Assembly: GCA_025056455.1 (NCBI GenBank)
Contig: JANWVY010000002.1
Span: 668,737 to 732,736, forward strand
Direction of reading: 5' to 3'
Length of the DNA: 64,000 nt
Source of the DNA: Bryobacteraceae bacterium
GTDB lineage: Bacteria > Acidobacteriota > Terriglobia > Bryobacterales > Bryobacteraceae
Part shown: positions 34,705 to 52,468 of the stretch, in pieces
How the letters are laid out: the number at the start of each line of letters is the position of its first letter
How positions within the stretch are numbered: the first letter of the stretch is position 1
Translations under genes and position numbers: made by a program
Notes under the pieces: generated by a model
Told to the model about the DNA's origin: nothing
The model's database searches: none
Seen by the model: only the letters and a program-made list of their open reading frames with translations

Positions 34705-36480
34705 TCATCGCGAGGGAATCACCGGCAACAGCACGTGCGAGGCCCGCGCCCCAGCGTGGTAGATGGTTTGTGTGGCCACCTTCATCTGCGCCGACATACC
34801 AAAAGGCTCGCCCGTGTTGAGATTGCGGTCAAACTGAGGGAAGTGGCTGCTCGTAATGTCTACACGCACGCGGTGTCCCTTGAGAAAGACATTGCTCGTT
34901 CCCACCAAATCAATGGTCATCTCGTACACTTTGCCCGGTTCAAGCCACTTCGGTTTGTCCGTTCCCTCGCGGTAGCGCGCGCGCAGGATGCCCTCTGCTA
35001 CATTGATTGCCCGTCCATCAGGAAAGACGTCAACCAGCTTGGCGACAAAGTCCGTATCCACGGCATCGGAAGCAGCATAGAGCACAACCTTGACCGGACC
35101 GGTCACCTCGAGATCCTCTTTCAGGAAATCGGATGTGTAGACGAGCACGTCATGACGGCTTTCAATGGGCCGTTGATCGACAGGACCAGCCACCGTCGGG
35201 GCGCCGCAGCAATTATTCCCACCGAGCGATGGAACCGGATTGGCAGGATCGTAGCGATAGGTGTCGGGCGGCGAGTCTGAGCCTGGCGGATCCCAGGACA
35301 GCGCTCCGTCGCCGCGATCGCTGTTGGCGTGTCCTCCACTGTGAAAGTACATTTTGCGGTACTGTGTTCGCGCGAGTGGATACTCGTTTTCGCGGCGCCA
35401 TTCATTTCGTCCCATCACAAATAAGGTGACGGGCGGCTCCCGGCTGATTCCATCGTCGACACCCTTTAACCAGTAGTCAAAGAAGCGCAGCGTGGCGGCG
35501 TCTTCGGCCACCAGGGCCTGCGGTCCAAAATCGATTTGACCAAACTTCTGAGAAGCTCCATGGCCCCACGGACCAATTAGCATGCGGCTGCCGCGCCGGG
35601 CCGCCTCGCTTCCTCCCCGGCGGCTCATGCCGGCGTAGCCCCGCAAGGTGCCCTGGCTGAAGATGTCAAACCAGCCGCCAATCGTGTACACGGGCACGGT
35701 GATTTGTTCGTAGATCTCCTCGACGCTCAGCTTGCGCCAGTAATCGTCGTAGTCAGGATGGCGGATCCAATCGCGGTAGAACTGCGCGTTGCGTCCAGCG
35801 AGCTTCTGCATCGTGTCAAGCGGCAAATGCCACAGCAGGCGCTCGTAGCTAATGGCATCCACGCCAGGCAAGCCATGCGGACCCGTATTCTGCATAATGC
35901 GCGACTCCTGCCGCACTGGCCCCCAACCAAAATTGAACGCCAACCGCCAGCCTCCATTCAGCGTGATCCAATCGTGGTAAATGCTGACCGAAGCAACCCG
36001 AGGAGCAATGCAAACCAAGTGCGGCGGTTTCGCCGAAGCCGCTCGCCATTGAACTTGACCGAGATAGGAGCCACCCTCCATCCCAACTTTGCCGTTCGAC
36101 CAGGGCTGCCGGGCGGCCCATTCAACCGTGTCATAACCATCGTCGATGTCGTCCCGGAACGGCTCCCATCGCCCCTCGGATTCGTGGCGTCCTCGCACAT
36201 CCTGCAAAACGTAAACGTAGCCTCGCTGCGAATAAAACACCGCATCCTTGTAGGCTGCCGGCGCACGCTCTGTGCTATAGGGCGTACGCGACACAATGAC
36301 GGGGTACTTGCCGGGCTTTGCCGGACGGTAAACATCGGCATACAGCGTCACGCCATCGCGCATCTTCACCGGAACCAGGTTCTCCAGCACGATGTCGTTG
36401 GTAGGGGGATAAGCAGGCGGAAAACTGACTTCCGCAGCGCGGGCCAGCACCCAGCACCCAGCAACAAGCAGCAATCGCAT
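34705..36480 (-). CDS. CocE/NonD-family hydrolase, secreted
   Basis: 591 residues with a signal peptide (MRLLLVAGCWVLARA), an N-terminal alpha/beta-hydrolase domain of the X-Pro dipeptidyl-peptidase S15 type (YADVYRPAKPGKYPVIVSRTPY; RGRHESEGRWEPF; nucleophile in GGSYLGQ), and a C-terminal jelly-roll domain of the S15/CocE type from about residue 420. Members hydrolyse esters (cocaine esterase), amides or N-terminal X-Pro dipeptides. Substrate not determinable. It ends 8 bp beyond the convergent Gfo/Idh gene and is head-to-head with the amidase gene. Confidence 0.9.
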   Translation of the reverse strand: MRLLLVAGCWVLARAAEVSFPPAYPPTNDIVLENLVPVKMRDGVTLYADVYRPAKPGKYPVIVSRTPYSTERAPAAYKDAVFYSQRGYVYVLQDVRGRHESEGRWEPFRDDIDDGYDTVEWAARQPWSNGKVGMEGGSYLGQVQWRAASAKPPHLVCIAPRVASVSIYHDWITLNGGWRLAFNFGWGPVRQESRIMQNTGPHGLPGVDAISYERLLWHLPLDTMQKLAGRNAQFYRDWIRHPDYDDYWRKLSVEEIYEQITVPVYTIGGWFDIFSQGTLRGYAGMSRRGGSEAARRGSRMLIGPWGHGASQKFGQIDFGPQALVAEDAATLRFFDYWLKGVDDGISREPPVTLFVMGRNEWRRENEYPLARTQYRKMYFHSGGHANSDRGDGALSWDPPGSDSPPDTYRYDPANPVPSLGGNNCCGAPTVAGPVDQRPIESRHDVLVYTSDFLKEDLEVTGPVKVVLYAASDAVDTDFVAKLVDVFPDGRAINVAEGILRARYREGTDKPKWLEPGKVYEMTIDLVGTSNVFLKGHRVRVDITSSHFPQFDRNLNTGEPFGMSAQMKVATQTIYHAGARASHVLLPVIPSR

Positions 36481-36535
36481 GGTGGGAATTCTACCTCACC
36501 AGCGAAGCCTCATTGTTTCATACGATGAGAAAGGA

Positions 36536-37738
36536 ATGCCGCAACCAGGACTGCTGGCGAGTTTCTTGAAAGGCGAGGTGACGCTAGCCCACCTGCTTGA
36601 CCGCATCCGGCGCAGCGACGCCCAGCTCCACTGCTGGACTGAAGTGCGAGCGGAAACCAGCGCTCAGGACGGTCCGCTGAAGGGCGTCCCTTTCGGGGTG
36701 AAAGACATTTTCGAAGCGCGCGGCTATCGCACCAGCTACGGCTCGGCCCTCTACGCCACTCATGTGAGCCAGTGCGACGCAGGCTTGATCTCCCTGTTGA
36801 GAGCGCGCGGCGCGGTCGTTTTGGGCAAAACGCACACCACAGCCTTCGCCTACTACGACCCGGCGCCGACTCGCAATCCACGCCGCCCCACTCATACCCC
36901 CGGAGGCAGCTCCAGCGGTTCGGCCGCCGCCGTGGCCGCCGGTATGGTCCCCTTCGCCATCGGCAGCCAAACCCAGGGATCCGTCATCCGGCCCGCATCC
37001 TTTTGCGGCGTGGTTGGATTTAAACCCACCTACGGACTCTTGCCCATGGACGGAGCCCTACCCTTTGCTCCCAGCCTGGATACCGCCGGATTGTTCACAC
37101 AAACCGCCTTCGATCTCCGGCTGCTGTGGGAAGGAATGGGCTACTCGGTCCATTCCGACCCTCCCTCTCAATACGGCCTGATGGAATTCGACGTTGAGCC
37201 CGAGATGCAGGAGTTCTTCCGCATGGCCATTCAAACCTTAGGGCAGTATGGCTGCCAGGTGCGCCGATTTGAGATCCCGCCCCATGTGGCCCAAGCACAA
37301 GATGCCGTCCGGATCGTGAACCAATACGAAGGAGCGCGGTCTAACGAGGAACGCTACCGCAAGTACGGCCCGGCTATCGGCGTGAAGCTGGCCCAGCTCG
37401 TGCGCGAGGGGCTGAAGATTCCTCCGGAACGCTACGAGCAAGCTCTCGAGACCTTGCGCCGGGCACGGCAAGAAATTGCCGAATTGTTTCAAACCTTTCC
37501 CGTCATCTTGTCGCCAGCCGCTCCCGGTTGGGCGCCCTCCGGCTTAGCTTCGACTGGTGATCCCCGCTGTAACGCCGTATGGACGGGGCTTCACGTTCCC
37601 GCCTTGACCATTCCCATCCCCGTGCCCAAAGGTCTTCTTCCTTTGGGTCTTCAAATGTGCGCGGCGCCGCGCCAAGAGGCCTTGTTAATTGCCGCCGCCA
37701 TGCATTGCCAGGCGCTGTTGAACGCGCCTGCCCGCTAG
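36536..37738 (+). CDS. amidase signature family enzyme
   Basis: 400 residues with the Ser-cisSer-Lys triad: Lys in GVPFGVKDIFEARG, the glycine/serine loop TPGGSSSGSAAAVAAG, and the nucleophile in QTQGSVIRPASFCG. Shorter than GatA (~480), like AtzF/allophanate-hydrolase-type or small amidases; no partner GatC or GatB is nearby. It releases ammonia from a carboxamide. The ATG at 36536 gives MPQPGLLASF; the frame is open to 36479, inside the divergent CocE gene. It precedes the hydroxyacid dehydrogenase/cytochrome pair by 68 bp on the same strand, so it may be part of that transcript. Confidence 0.9.
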   Translation: MPQPGLLASFLKGEVTLAHLLDRIRRSDAQLHCWTEVRAETSAQDGPLKGVPFGVKDIFEARGYRTSYGSALYATHVSQCDAGLISLLRARGAVVLGKTHTTAFAYYDPAPTRNPRRPTHTPGGSSSGSAAAVAAGMVPFAIGSQTQGSVIRPASFCGVVGFKPTYGLLPMDGALPFAPSLDTAGLFTQTAFDLRLLWEGMGYSVHSDPPSQYGLMEFDVEPEMQEFFRMAIQTLGQYGCQVRRFEIPPHVAQAQDAVRIVNQYEGARSNEERYRKYGPAIGVKLAQLVREGLKIPPERYEQALETLRRARQEIAELFQTFPVILSPAAPGWAPSGLASTGDPRCNAVWTGLHVPALTIPIPVPKGLLPLGLQMCAAPRQEALLIAAAMHCQALLNAPAR

Positions 37739-37806: not shown

Positions 37807-38952
37807 ATGAATCGTCGCCAAGCCTTTCGTCGTTTGCTGGGATTTGCAGCGGCCTCTCCGCTCCTCGCCCAGCAGGCTCCGAGTGAGGAGGATGTCAACG
37901 GTCCGGTCAACGTCCACGAATTTGAAGAGATCGCAAAAAAGAAGCTCGACAAGCTGGCCTACGACTTCATTGCTGGAGGCGTGGAGGACGAACTGACCTT
38001 ACGCGCTAACCGCGAGGCCTTCCAGCACTGGTATCTTATCCCCCGCGTTCTCACCGACGTCAGCCAGGTCGACATGTCGACCGAGCTTTTTGGCGTACGG
38101 ATTCCACAGCCCATTCTGGTTGCCCCGACCGGAGGAAAAAACCTAATTGCGCCCAACGCCGAAACCCTCGTGGCGAAGGCTTGCGCCCGGACCCAAACGC
38201 TGTTCTGCACGGGCAGCGGCGCCGAACGCGCGCTCGAGGACGAGGGTGAGGTGAACTGGTGGAGCAACACGGTTGGCCAGGCCACGCGCGAGGCGGCAAT
38301 GAGCTACGCCCGGCGCATGGAAGATCGCGGTGCGAAAGCCATCACCCTCACCGTGGATAACCAGTATCAGTCCAACCGGGACCGCAATAATCGAAACCGC
38401 TTTGATTACGGATACATGGGAACGGGCCTGCCGAAACCGGGCCAGCCTCCACCCCCGCCGCGCAACCCCGCCCGCCCGGCCATGTGGCAGCCGCACACCC
38501 CAAACCTCACGTGGGATTACATTGACTGGGTGCGCGGTGCGACCAATTTGCCTGTAATCCTGAAGGGCATTCTAGCGCCTGAGGATGCCGAGCTGGCCGT
38601 CCGCCGCGGCGCTAGCGGCATCATCGTGTCGAACCACGGAGGCCGGCAACTGGACGGCGTGATCGCAACCATTGACGCTCTGCCTGATGTCGCGGATGCG
38701 GTGGGAGGCAAAGTGCCTGTGCTCATGGATGGGGGAATCCGGCGGGGTAGCGACATCTTGAAGGCCCTCGCGCTCGGAGCGAAGGCAGTTCTCGTTGGCC
38801 GGCCGCCGCTGTGGGGCCTCGCCGCCTTCGGACAAGCCGGCGTAGAGCGCGTGCTCTGGATGCTGGGCGCGGAATTGAAACTTTCCATGGCCCTAGCCGG
38901 AAAGCCTAATCTCGCCGCCATCGACCGCAAGATGGTAAGGAGGCTCGGATGA
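37807..38952 (+). CDS. Tat-exported FMN 2-hydroxyacid dehydrogenase, copy A
   Basis: 381 residues. The N-terminal MNRRQAFRRLLGFAAASPLLAQ is a twin-arginine-like signal; the rest is the FMN-dependent alpha-hydroxyacid dehydrogenase barrel. From comparison with glycolate oxidase as I remember it, Lys253 (VILKGIL), His277 and Arg280 (SNHGGRQLDG) and Asp184 (LTVDN) are conserved. The active-site Tyr positions read Phe54 and Thr155. FMN enzymes fold in the cytoplasm, which fits Tat export. The stop overlaps the start of a hexahaem cytochrome (ATGA), so I infer that it feeds electrons to that cytochrome rather than oxygen. A homologue with the same partner lies at 50710-51882. Confidence 0.88.
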   Translation: MNRRQAFRRLLGFAAASPLLAQQAPSEEDVNGPVNVHEFEEIAKKKLDKLAYDFIAGGVEDELTLRANREAFQHWYLIPRVLTDVSQVDMSTELFGVRIPQPILVAPTGGKNLIAPNAETLVAKACARTQTLFCTGSGAERALEDEGEVNWWSNTVGQATREAAMSYARRMEDRGAKAITLTVDNQYQSNRDRNNRNRFDYGYMGTGLPKPGQPPPPPRNPARPAMWQPHTPNLTWDYIDWVRGATNLPVILKGILAPEDAELAVRRGASGIIVSNHGGRQLDGVIATIDALPDVADAVGGKVPVLMDGGIRRGSDILKALALGAKAVLVGRPPLWGLAAFGQAGVERVLWMLGAELKLSMALAGKPNLAAIDRKMVRRLG

Positions 38953-39449
38953 GGGCTCTCCTCGGGCTCGCCGTTGTCGCGGCCTGGGCGCAGGAACTTG
39001 GCACCTCCTGCCTGCCCTGCCACAGCGAGCACGTCGCCGACGTCCGCGCGCACAAGCATGGCGCCCGCCAGGTGGGCTGTGAAGTCTGCCACGGAGTCAG
39101 TGAAACCCATCGCAACGCATCGGGCGGCGTGGCTCCGGACCGCGTCGCGGCGCCCGATGAAGTCCCCCTGCTTTGTGGGGGCTGCCATGGAGAAGAACGC
39201 AAACAATACCTCGCCAGCAAGCACGGTAAACTCGTGATGGCCCGCAGCAAGATCCGCGCCCCTTCCTGCGGCGTCTGTCATGGCGTCCACGCCCAGCGCA
39301 ACGCGGTTGCCATGCGGCGACAATGCGATCGCTGCCATACTGATTTGCCCGCCAGTTGCAAGCCAGGTCAGGCTCCGCCGGCTGGAAAGCTGGTCTGCGC
39401 CCAGTGCCATGCTCCGCACAGCCTGCAAACCAGCCCGCGGCCGGGCTAG
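38949..39449 (+). CDS. secreted hexahaem c-type cytochrome
   Basis: 166 residues with a short signal (MRALLGLAVVAAWAQE) and six CXXCH haem sites: CLPCH, CEVCH, CGGCH, CGVCH, CDRCH and CAQCH. Additional histidines between them could serve as distal ligands. The spacing resembles doublets of the cytochrome c3/NapC-like or DmsE-like small multihaem proteins. It is translationally coupled to copy A of the FMN hydroxyacid dehydrogenase (4-bp overlap) and is the likely electron acceptor in the periplasm. No outer-membrane conduit is visible nearby. Confidence 0.88.
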   Translation: MRALLGLAVVAAWAQELGTSCLPCHSEHVADVRAHKHGARQVGCEVCHGVSETHRNASGGVAPDRVAAPDEVPLLCGGCHGEERKQYLASKHGKLVMARSKIRAPSCGVCHGVHAQRNAVAMRRQCDRCHTDLPASCKPGQAPPAGKLVCAQCHAPHSLQTSPRPG

Positions 39450-50709: not shown

Positions 50710-51882
50710 ATGATCCTAGACCGACGTCAAGCCTTAAAAGCCGTTTTCGGTTGGGCCGCGGGCTCGCCCCTTGCCCTTGCACAAGGCGAGGATCCGCTCT
50801 ATGGCCCGCTCAACGTCTTTGACTTCGCCGAGCTAGCAAAGAAAAAGCTCGATCCCTTGGCCTGGGATTATCTCGAGGGTGGTTCCGAAGATGAGGCATC
50901 CCTACGCGACAACCGGGCCATCTTCCGGAAAGTCATTATCCGCCCCCGGGCATTAGTCGACGTGCACAAAATTGATCTGTCGCTCGAATTGTTTGGCAAG
51001 AAACTCGACTACCCGATTCTTCTCGACCCGGCGGGAGGAAAGAACTGTTTTTACCCCAACGGCGAACTGGAGGTTTCCAAAGCGGCTGCCAGAGCCAAAG
51101 CGCTGCACATCACCAATGGCGGCATTGAAGAGTTTTTAGAGTCCGGTCAAGCGCCGGTGTGGTGGCAGGTGACAACAGGAGGGCAGTTCCAAAACCCCCA
51201 AAGCATGCGCAGCTTCGTCCAGCGCCTGGAGTCCATGGGCTGCTCAGGAATTTGTTTCACCGTGGATATCATGCACGTTTCGCACCGCGAGCGCGATATC
51301 CGCAACCGGCTAGAACGGGCCTGGTGTGAGACAGGCCTGCCCAAACGCGATGCGGACGGCCGCATGCCGCCCGCTAAAAATCCCTGGCGAGTCGGCGTGT
51401 ACCCCTCCCGTCCAGCGCCCACTCCCACTTGGAACACCTTGCGTGAGCTCACGGCCATGACCAAACTCCCGGTCATCGTCAAAGGCATCCTCACGGGCGA
51501 AGACGCTGCCCGTTGCGTCGAGTCTGGCGCGAGTTGTGTCATGGTCTCCAACCACGGAGCGCGCCAGTTGGATCATGTCGGCTCAACTCTCGAGGCGCTG
51601 CCGGAAGTGGTGCGGGCGGTCCAGGGTCGTATCCCCGTTCTGGTTGACGGCGGCTTTCGTCGCGGGACAGACATTTTGAAGGGCCTGGCTCTTGGCGCCA
51701 AGGCCGTCGCCATCGCACGCCCTTACCTCTATGGCCTAGCGGCCTTCGGAGGGCGGGGTGTGGAACGCGTCCTCGAGTTGCTCAAGACCGAGCTTGCTCT
51801 AGACATGGCTCTTGCTGGCGTGCCCACACTGGCCTCAATCGACTCCAGTTTGGTGCGATTCCGCGACAGCTTACTGGAGTAA
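50710..51882 (+). CDS. Tat-exported FMN 2-hydroxyacid dehydrogenase, copy B
   Basis: 390 residues, homologous to copy A at 37807-38952. The signal is DRRQALKAVFGWAAGSPLALAQ, again twin-arginine-like. Lys258, His282 and Arg285 (NHGARQLD) and Asp186 are conserved. Unlike copy A it keeps a Tyr at position 54 and Gln153, but it also has Thr155 in place of the second active-site Tyr. A tetrahaem cytochrome gene follows after 25 bp. I start at ATG 50710; TTG 50704 has a better-placed GAAAGGG and is a real alternative. Confidence 0.86.
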   Translation: MILDRRQALKAVFGWAAGSPLALAQGEDPLYGPLNVFDFAELAKKKLDPLAWDYLEGGSEDEASLRDNRAIFRKVIIRPRALVDVHKIDLSLELFGKKLDYPILLDPAGGKNCFYPNGELEVSKAAARAKALHITNGGIEEFLESGQAPVWWQVTTGGQFQNPQSMRSFVQRLESMGCSGICFTVDIMHVSHRERDIRNRLERAWCETGLPKRDADGRMPPAKNPWRVGVYPSRPAPTPTWNTLRELTAMTKLPVIVKGILTGEDAARCVESGASCVMVSNHGARQLDHVGSTLEALPEVVRAVQGRIPVLVDGGFRRGTDILKGLALGAKAVAIARPYLYGLAAFGGRGVERVLELLKTELALDMALAGVPTLASIDSSLVRFRDSLLE

Positions 51883-51907
51883 GGTTTCAGACAAAGGGGG
51901 GACTCAA

Positions 51908-52468
51908 GTGCGTCTTTTGGCCGTTGCACTGGCCTGGATGGCGTTCGCTTCGGGCTTCCAGCAACCCCCGCGATTTCTTGCGCCGCAAGATCAATCCCTG
52001 GTTTCGCCCGGGCCGCTTCGAATCTTGGCGCAAGGCTCGGGCCCGCTCCGTCTGCTCCGAGACGGCGAAGTTGTTCCCCTTACCTCTCCCGCAGCGGGTG
52101 TTTATTTTGCGGAACTGAGCCTCTCGCCAGGCCGTCACGAGCTTCAGCTCGAGGCCGAAACGGGCGTAGCGAGAATCCAACTTTTTGCAGGAGAAGATCA
52201 CCCGTTCTGGAAACGTTTTCGTCCTCATCCGCCTGCAGCTTCTTGCGAGTTGTGTCATGCCCTGCAAAAAAACTCTTGGACCTTGAAGCGCCCGGGCGTG
52301 CCTGCGTTGTGTTTTCACTGCCATGCCCGCGGCCGTTTTCCTCTCACTCACACCCACAACACCGACCTGCTTGCGGATTGTGCTCTCTGTCATGCGCCGC
52401 ATGGTTCAGCCGCTGTCGCATTCTTGACCAAACCGAAAGAAACCGTTTGCAAGCAATGCCACAGTTGA
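51908..52468 (+). CDS. secreted tetrahaem c-type cytochrome with N-terminal beta domain
   Basis: 186 residues: signal MRLLAVALAWMAFASGFQ, a beta-sandwich-like region (~25-105, resembling an Ig-like or carbohydrate-type fold: LSPGRHELQLEAETGVARIQL), then four CXXCH sites (CELCH, CFHCH, CALCH, CKQCH). Start is a GTG at 51908 preceded by AAAGGGGGGA. It follows copy B of the FMN hydroxyacid dehydrogenase by 25 bp, as the hexahaem cytochrome follows copy A. Likely electron acceptor for that enzyme in the periplasm. Confidence 0.85.
   Translation: MRLLAVALAWMAFASGFQQPPRFLAPQDQSLVSPGPLRILAQGSGPLRLLRDGEVVPLTSPAAGVYFAELSLSPGRHELQLEAETGVARIQLFAGEDHPFWKRFRPHPPAASCELCHALQKNSWTLKRPGVPALCFHCHARGRFPLTHTHNTDLLADCALCHAPHGSAAVAFLTKPKETVCKQCHS

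Follow-up and report, generated by a model that had tools for sequence, protein, structure and literature searches.

An FMN_dh enzyme with a twin-arginine N-terminus and its adjoining hexahaem cytochrome gene in a Bryobacteraceae genome

In the window, that is, the whole stretch of 64,000 nucleotides of a Bryobacteraceae genome that we analysed, the end of a gene for an enzyme of the FMN_dh family overlaps the start of a gene for a six-haem c-type cytochrome. We regard it as probable that these two genes work as a unit, in which a periplasmic FMN enzyme would oxidise a 2-hydroxyacid-like substrate and give the electrons to its own bis-His multihaem cytochrome. The export-type sequence and the coupling of the genes are well supported by sequence comparison, and from the same comparison we infer the electron exchange between enzyme and cytochrome, its direction and the class of the substrate. 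Such a two-gene unit suggests a new way to feed the electrons of organic acids (or similar compounds) into a haem chain outside the inner membrane. Furthermore, the active site of the enzyme is a real surprise within an otherwise familiar kind of protein.

The gene pair and its conservation

The FMN_dh gene (37807 to 38952, forward strand) encodes 381 amino acids and matches PF01070 with 372.8 bits against a cut-off of 24.9, over positions 1-349 of the 350 of the profile. It belongs to a hexahaem-associated clade, whose members we call clade enzymes. Its first codons (37807 to 37872, forward strand) encode the twin-arginine type N-terminus MNRRQAFRRLLGFAAASPLLAQ. The second gene (38949 to 39449, forward strand), recognised by its open reading frame and Pfam matches as well, encodes a cytochrome of 166 amino acids with six CXXCH motifs and a short Sec-like leader, the N-terminus being MRALLGLAVVAAWAQ. 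The ATG of the cytochrome at 38949-38951 and the TGA of the enzyme at 38950-38952 form an ATGA stop/start overlap (38949 to 38952, forward strand), and an AGGAGG stands 5 bases ahead of this ATG. The preliminary description had read here an FMN enzyme with an RR-type N-terminus, whose stop overlaps the start of a gene with six CXXCH motifs, and the reading frames, the Pfam matches and the ATGA show that it was correct. Upstream of the pair there are an amidase gene (36479 to 37738) and, on the opposite strand, a gene for a CocE/NonD-type hydrolase. Downstream begin the his genes, with a PRA-CH domain according to Pfam followed by genes that we read as hisG, hisD and hisC from the list of open reading frames.

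The cytochrome is a member of the c3/c7 type, as it scores above the cut-offs of both PF14537 and PF14522 (34.9 bits for Cytochrom_c3_2, cut-off 25, and 32.6 bits for Cytochrome_C7, cut-off 24.8) and has a candidate distal histidine for each haem. In 32 aligned hexahaem proteins all six CXXCH motifs are invariant, and so are exactly six histidines outside the motifs (H35, H37, H54, H92, H114 and H157, in 32 of 32 sequences). This one extra invariant histidine per haem fits a predicted bis-His ligation of all six haems. The NCBIfam models of DmsE/GSU2203-type decahaem cytochromes stayed below their cut-offs (32.8 of 192.2 and 35.3 of 325), and the predicted structure was poor (pLDDT 57.9), too poor for a fold search. 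A lone cysteine outside the CXXCH motifs, C137, is at least 90% conserved in the hexahaem family.

A scan of the GTDB species genomes with exact peptide patterns, which reach mainly close relatives, gave 44 loci. Thirty-seven of them are close relatives at 61-80% identity, 36 acidobacterial by their title and one titled Acidimicrobiia, and the remaining 7 are more distant (34-57% identity). An open reading frame with six CXXCH motifs lies directly 3' of the enzyme in 34 of the 37 close relatives and one with three motifs, cut short, in another; no CXXCH frame was found downstream in the last two or in any of the 7 distant loci. The short cytochrome frame (L036/L004) is cut after its third CXXCH and runs into unrelated sequence, owing to a rearrangement or an assembly error. 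The locus titled Acidimicrobiia (L062) has a pair of the acidobacterial type at 67% identity, and its title may be that of a mislabelled bin.

We also searched 257 genomes of the order, a set that overlaps the scanned loci, so that the counts of both searches are not independent. Clade enzymes were those with at least 396 bits, the next match having 372 bits, and hexahaem matches were taken at an E-value of 1e-20 or better, which gave 62 clade enzymes and 58 hexahaem cytochromes. The hexahaem gene lies directly downstream on the same strand, with a gap of 0-132 nt, in 55 of the 62 enzymes, and 55 of the 58 cytochromes follow a clade FMN_dh. This order-wide recurrence, together with the six motifs being invariant in the alignment, argues that the pair of the window is not due to chance. 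The preliminary description had proposed looking for the same adjacent pair in acidobacterial genomes, and it is present both in the close relatives and across the order.

Regarding the unpaired genes, two of the three hexahaem cytochromes are at contig edges. The third (L182, in genome G412) has no adjoining FMN_dh, and no FMN_dh match of clade level turned up anywhere in its genome. Among the 7 enzymes without a hexahaem gene, one (G531/L184) is followed by a transposase-like frame, and in the other six no CXXCH frame of at least 110 amino acids was found in the stretch read. In L052/L184 the transposase-like frame occupies the very place of the hexahaem gene downstream of the FMN_dh. Within 61 nearer genomes, 18 hexahaem matches reached at least 108 bits and the next match had 38 bits; therefore, the hexahaem cytochrome is a distinct family tied to the clade enzyme.

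A 4-nt overlap was found in 32 of 40 distinct hexahaem pairs, the starts being chosen by a script, so that small differences may be errors. When the open reading frames of 38 regions were clustered, no other neighbour family occurred in more than 15 of them, and we rejected a larger conserved operon on these grounds; as flanks of 6 kb on either side are available for only 22 of the 38 regions, shared neighbours can be missed. Read by eye, the commonest of these other neighbours resemble genes for ATP synthase subunits, which lie 2-3 kb downstream, and, on the upstream side, a gene for uroporphyrinogen-III synthase.

Fold and active site of the enzyme

The AlphaFold model of the first FMN_dh has a mean pLDDT of 89.7. 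Its best-ranked match in the PDB was human glycolate oxidase (2w0u_A; Z 44.8, rmsd 1.9 A, 328 aligned residues), where matches within 1 Z of this value count as tied and those listed range from Z 42 to 45. The catalytic-residue set of the family is complete (H277, D184, K253, R280, R191 and R312). In the order D184, R191, K253, H277, R280 and R312, these kept residues are the equivalents of D157, R164, K230, H254, R257 and R289 in what we take to be the numbering of spinach glycolate oxidase, and none of them varies among the 43 clade members. F54, G109, S153 and T155 align at Y24, A79, Q127 and Y129 of the spinach enzyme, again in the presumed numbering. Thr occupies position 129 in 33 of the 43 clade members; the others have Gly (7), Ser (2) or Leu (1). 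The Gly at the A79 position is found in all 43, but also in 38 of the 72 homologs that keep Tyr129, and is not diagnostic.

Alignment to Aerococcus lactate oxidase (chain numbering plus six) places F54 at Tyr40, T155 at Tyr146 and R280 at Arg268, a triad which, according to excerpts of PMC4908395, positions the substrate. Thus, Tyr/Tyr/Arg has become Phe/Thr/Arg in the first FMN_dh: the Arg is kept and both Tyr are lost. Membership in the FMN_dh family by descent stands, but a label of hydroxyacid activity does not follow from descent, and because the equivalents of Tyr129 and Tyr24 are lost, the enzyme can be called a putative hydroxyacid dehydrogenase. Several NCBIfam cut-offs were not reached, namely those of lactate oxidase (217 of 645.5), LldD (189.1 of 550) and PRK11197 (220 of 376).

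Mutants of p-hydroxymandelate oxidase (Hmo) help to read this active site. As far as the excerpts of PMC6677016 and PMC6778850 go, the activity of Hmo is lost in R163A, H252F and R255A, whereas Y128F is active as an O2-dependent four-electron oxidative decarboxylase instead of carrying out the two-electron oxidation. By the family numbering, the required R163, H252 and R255 appear to be R191, H277 and R280 of the window enzyme, a mapping consistent with the aligned range of the structure match. Since these three residues are kept, a substrate of the 2-hydroxyacid type is most likely retained, judging from the alignment, and we name no specific acid. The tyrosine whose loss shifts the outcome in Hmo is gone, and the chemistry may go beyond the usual step of the family. 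The loss of the Tyr129 and Tyr24 equivalents suggests, at the level of residues, a substrate or outcome unlike the plain oxidation of lactate or glycolate: a bulkier acid, a hydroxyamide, or a reaction past the keto acid.

It is possible, although clearly less probable than our reading, that the substrate is not a 2-hydroxyacid at all and that it is, for example, a hydroxyamide, an amine or a group derived from a peptide or lactone, since the enzyme has lost the tyrosines contacting the substrate carboxylate and hydroxyl. This explanation shares the electron transfer with ours and differs in the substrate. The replacement by F54 and T155 favours it, as do the activity of Hmo R163L on mandelamide (excerpts of PMC6677016), the propeller-like gene with weak virginiamycin B lyase likeness in the sister tetrahaem modules described below, and the best NCBIfam model, that of the peptide-modifying pre-mycofactocin synthase MftD, even if its 234.4 bits are far below the cut-off of 470.85. 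However, the Arg/His/Arg needed by Hmo appear to be present, and wild-type Hmo itself has Phe24 and is active (the same excerpts), so that 2-hydroxyacid chemistry would still be possible.

Predicted export and a proposed electron route

By a simple rule of our own, an RR pair plus a hydrophobic window, 42 of 43 rows of the hexahaem clade (clade A below) have an export-type N-terminus, the 43rd being cut at a contig edge. The same holds for 32 of the 34 rows that lack Tyr129 outside clade A and for 43 of the 72 rows of the rest. Across 63 aligned homologs, R3 and R4 show a conservation of at least 90%. The genome of the window has TatC, three cytochrome c assembly matches and three COX1-type matches, and therefore the twin arginine, the hydrophobic stretch and the TatC gene expected for a Tat substrate were all found. 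The export of the FMN enzyme, as claimed before, is supported as a prediction by the RR rule and by the TatC and cytochrome c assembly genes, and a signal-like N-terminus, which the preliminary description had wanted to see checked, is present by the same rule.

We propose that the FMN enzyme, with its L-2-hydroxyacid oxidase/dehydrogenase fold, would fold with FMN in the cytoplasm and that Tat would export it folded to the periplasm (or outside). There, it would oxidise a 2-hydroxyacid-like substrate by means of the His/Asp/Arg/Lys machinery of the family, and the electrons would pass one by one to the co-made, Sec-exported six-haem cytochrome. The latter would relay them to the periplasmic cytochrome pool, and from there they would reach a terminal oxidase or another acceptor. 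Net charge gave no complementary-surface signal specific to the clade (median +5 vs background +4). A bolder extension, which we hold to be rather doubtful, is that this exported lineage without the catalytic tyrosine of the family and with a multihaem sink carries out an oxidation new to the family, in which the haem array would store several electrons. It might, for instance, go past the keto acid, a reaction that mandelate oxidase performs with O2 once its Tyr128 is mutated, or act on a non-acid substrate outside the cell.

The preliminary description had given quinones or O2 as the usual acceptors of the bacterial enzymes of this family; excerpts of PMC8491902 name both and add cytochrome c, which is used in flavocytochrome b2. 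In the same way, its claim of novelty holds for the separate multihaem c-type partner and fails for haem coupling as such, already known from flavocytochrome b2 in that excerpted source. Flavocytochrome b2, the yeast L-lactate:cytochrome c oxidoreductase (EC 1.1.2.3), resembles the proposed pair in that it has the FMN_dh fold and sends electrons via haem to cytochrome c. It has a fused cytochrome b5-type domain, whereas PF00173 is absent from the 381-aa enzyme, in which Pfam found FMN_dh and four related-barrel families, and the partner is a separate six-haem c-type cytochrome. Furthermore, its Tyr143 and Tyr254, in the numbering that we take to be the usual one, are Phe and Thr in the window enzyme. 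In the cell, flavocytochrome b2 resides in the intermembrane space of mitochondria.

Glycolate oxidase (HAO1), lactate oxidase and Hmo have the fold and the His/Asp/Lys/Arg set in common with the window enzyme, and Hmo, in the excerpts mentioned, also the Phe at position 24, whereas their Tyr129, Tyr146 and Tyr128, respectively, is Thr in the window enzyme. We know of no case in which one of these three is exported by Tat with a cytochrome partner. E. coli LldD and Pseudomonas mandelate dehydrogenase are membrane-associated enzymes of the same family with a non-oxygen acceptor, a quinone for mandelate dehydrogenase (excerpts of PMC8491902); LldD differs from the window enzyme in that both tyrosines are present and an RR N-terminus is lacking. 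An FMN_dh with a co-encoded multihaem cytochrome was not found in the titles and abstract starts of the papers that searches of the open-licence PMC literature listed, and none of five cytochrome terms was found in the review PMC7312611. The D-malate enzyme with cytochrome c as acceptor is functionally like the window pair in its periplasmic hydroxyacid oxidation. It differs in requiring Zn. The text of its paper mentions 'FMN' 0 times and 'FAD' 2 times, and the excerpts describe no co-encoded multihaem cytochrome. p-Cresol methylhydroxylase and flavocytochrome c sulfide dehydrogenase are periplasmic flavoproteins with a co-encoded c-type cytochrome and work in the way proposed for the window pair, but their flavoprotein folds are unrelated and their cytochromes are mono- or dihaem.

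The FMN 2-hydroxyacid family is a textbook one (glycolate oxidase, lactate oxidase, flavocytochrome b2), and mutants of its tyrosines have been examined. An exported-looking lineage in nature that lacks these tyrosines and has a multihaem partner would be a natural experiment on their role. It would also suggest that acidobacteria, which are common in soils and poorly understood, oxidise substrates outside the cytoplasm, and it might supply an enzyme that passes electrons directly to haem chains or electrodes.

The second pair, related lineages and the alternatives

The window has a second pair, which the preliminary description had overlooked, as it had the changed tyrosines and the pentahaem arrangement described below. 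Its FMN_dh, identified by sequence alignment (50710 to 51882, forward strand), has 390 amino acids and the Tat-like N-terminus MILDRRQALKAVFGWAAGSPLALAQ. The gene that starts 25 nt after it (51908 to 52468, forward strand) encodes a tetrahaem c-type cytochrome of 186 amino acids, with a GTG start and an N-terminal region free of CXXCH. The second FMN_dh is 49% identical to the first, keeps Y24 and has Thr at Y129, and the whole pair (50710 to 52468) is paralogous to the hexahaem pair.

We aligned 155 distinct homologs and kept 149 for a tree in which the active-site columns were masked, 6 being dropped for missing catalytic residues or for their length; a second tree was made from 68 thinned rows with a mixture model. 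One group contains 75 of the 77 rows that lack Tyr129 (local support 99 with 149 rows, SH-aLRT 97 with 68 rows), the rows outside it being L114_3441 and L135. The group splits into two clades that are sisters of each other: A goes with the hexahaem (SH-aLRT 99) and B with the tetrahaem (SH-aLRT 100). The window has one pair from each.

Counting only downstream genes in the 149 rows, we found 62 with a cytochrome and Tyr129 lost, 72 with no cytochrome and Tyr129 kept, 15 with no cytochrome and Tyr129 lost, and 0 with a cytochrome and Tyr129 kept. However, when the upstream side was counted too, a pentahaem gene was found directly upstream in 9 of the 72 rows that keep Tyr129, and a further row has one on the opposite strand, which rules out the loss of Tyr129 as a marker of cytochrome coupling. 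On these trees, what the loss marks is the lineage with a hexa- or tetrahaem gene downstream, with a single origin (one independent pair at most). Among the 15 rows with Tyr129 lost and no cytochrome, only 997 nt of downstream sequence exist for L027, a tetrahaem gene lies 2.1 kb from L121, L052 has the transposase-like frame, and the propeller gene described below is still present in L023 (read as L116) and in L091; L114_3441 and L135, the two rows outside the group, are also among the 15. Because no multihaem neighbour lies within 1.5 kb of 62 of the 72 homologs that keep Tyr129 (4 of the 72 with under 1140 nt downstream and several with short upstream flanks), the cytochrome partnership is not general across the FMN_dh family.

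The 9 homologs with an upstream partner belong to a further lineage of Tat-type FMN_dh; their pentahaem gene (Cytochrome_C7/class III type) ends at a distance of -14 to +25 nt from where the enzyme gene starts (L099:1991-2479, and L093, L095, L098, L100, L105, L109, L110 and L111). Five matches to this pentahaem cytochrome were seen in the genome of the window. Putatively exported FMN_dh enzymes appear, then, to associate with multihaem cytochromes of several kinds and in more than one gene order, and such recurrent, varied partnerships are better evidence of working together than a single pair. A profile comparison of the hexahaem cytochrome with the tetrahaem and pentahaem ones gave 95.3% and 95.4%; since both values are equal and likely driven by the haem motifs, they decide nothing on common ancestry.

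Other members of clade B have a Tat-like, propeller-like gene of no Pfam family between the enzyme and the tetrahaem gene (L113:3770-4570; also L080, L079, L091, L116 and L121). The motif PDPHGM...YYCDAGIAPG is conserved in five aligned proteins of this kind, whose similarity to virginiamycin B lyase and other propellers is weak. L080, from the genus of the window, has the gene, and the same two genes follow the tetrahaem gene in L080 and in the window (62% and 73% identity); therefore, the window lineage has probably lost the propeller gene.

In an unlikely alternative, the enzyme would react with O2 as an exported oxidase or in the manner of a monooxygenase, and the adjacent cytochrome would serve the same process and take no electrons directly from FMN. 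The change of Tyr128 to Phe, which makes Hmo an O2-dependent four-electron decarboxylase (excerpts of PMC6677016 and PMC6778850), the Thr at the position of Tyr146 of lactate oxidase and the 7 of 62 enzymes without a cytochrome would agree with O2 use, but the cytochrome gene stands directly after the other 55, and cytochromes with six, four and five haems are found as partners in separate arrangements. That the two genes are neighbours by descent only, with no shared function, is very improbable: the clade is one lineage and some genomes have lost one partner, yet a cytochrome adjoins the enzyme in 35 of 37 close relatives, while any other neighbour family was found in at most 15 of 38 regions. 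In addition, 32 of 40 distinct pairs retain the 4-nt overlap, and in another FMN_dh lineage the cytochrome gene is placed differently. Finally, a reverse flow, in which the cytochrome would reduce the flavin of a periplasmic reductase of a keto compound, seems hardly credible, since the residues for hydroxyacid oxidation are kept and we know of no PF01070 member that acts as a respiratory reductase, even though other exported flavoproteins with multihaem partners or domains, such as Shewanella fumarate reductase, are reductases.

Besides the two paired copies, the genome has a third full-length FMN_dh (G000:C23:38949-40109, L128), which keeps both tyrosines, has Ala at the R164 position and has no cytochrome within 1.5 kb. 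In L119_3724, L127_3502, L167_1, L169_2644 and L180_3712, which were left out of the tree, a catalytic His, Lys, Arg or Asp is changed. Such altered copies lie in several loci in tandem to another FMN_dh copy and are perhaps pseudo-enzyme partners.
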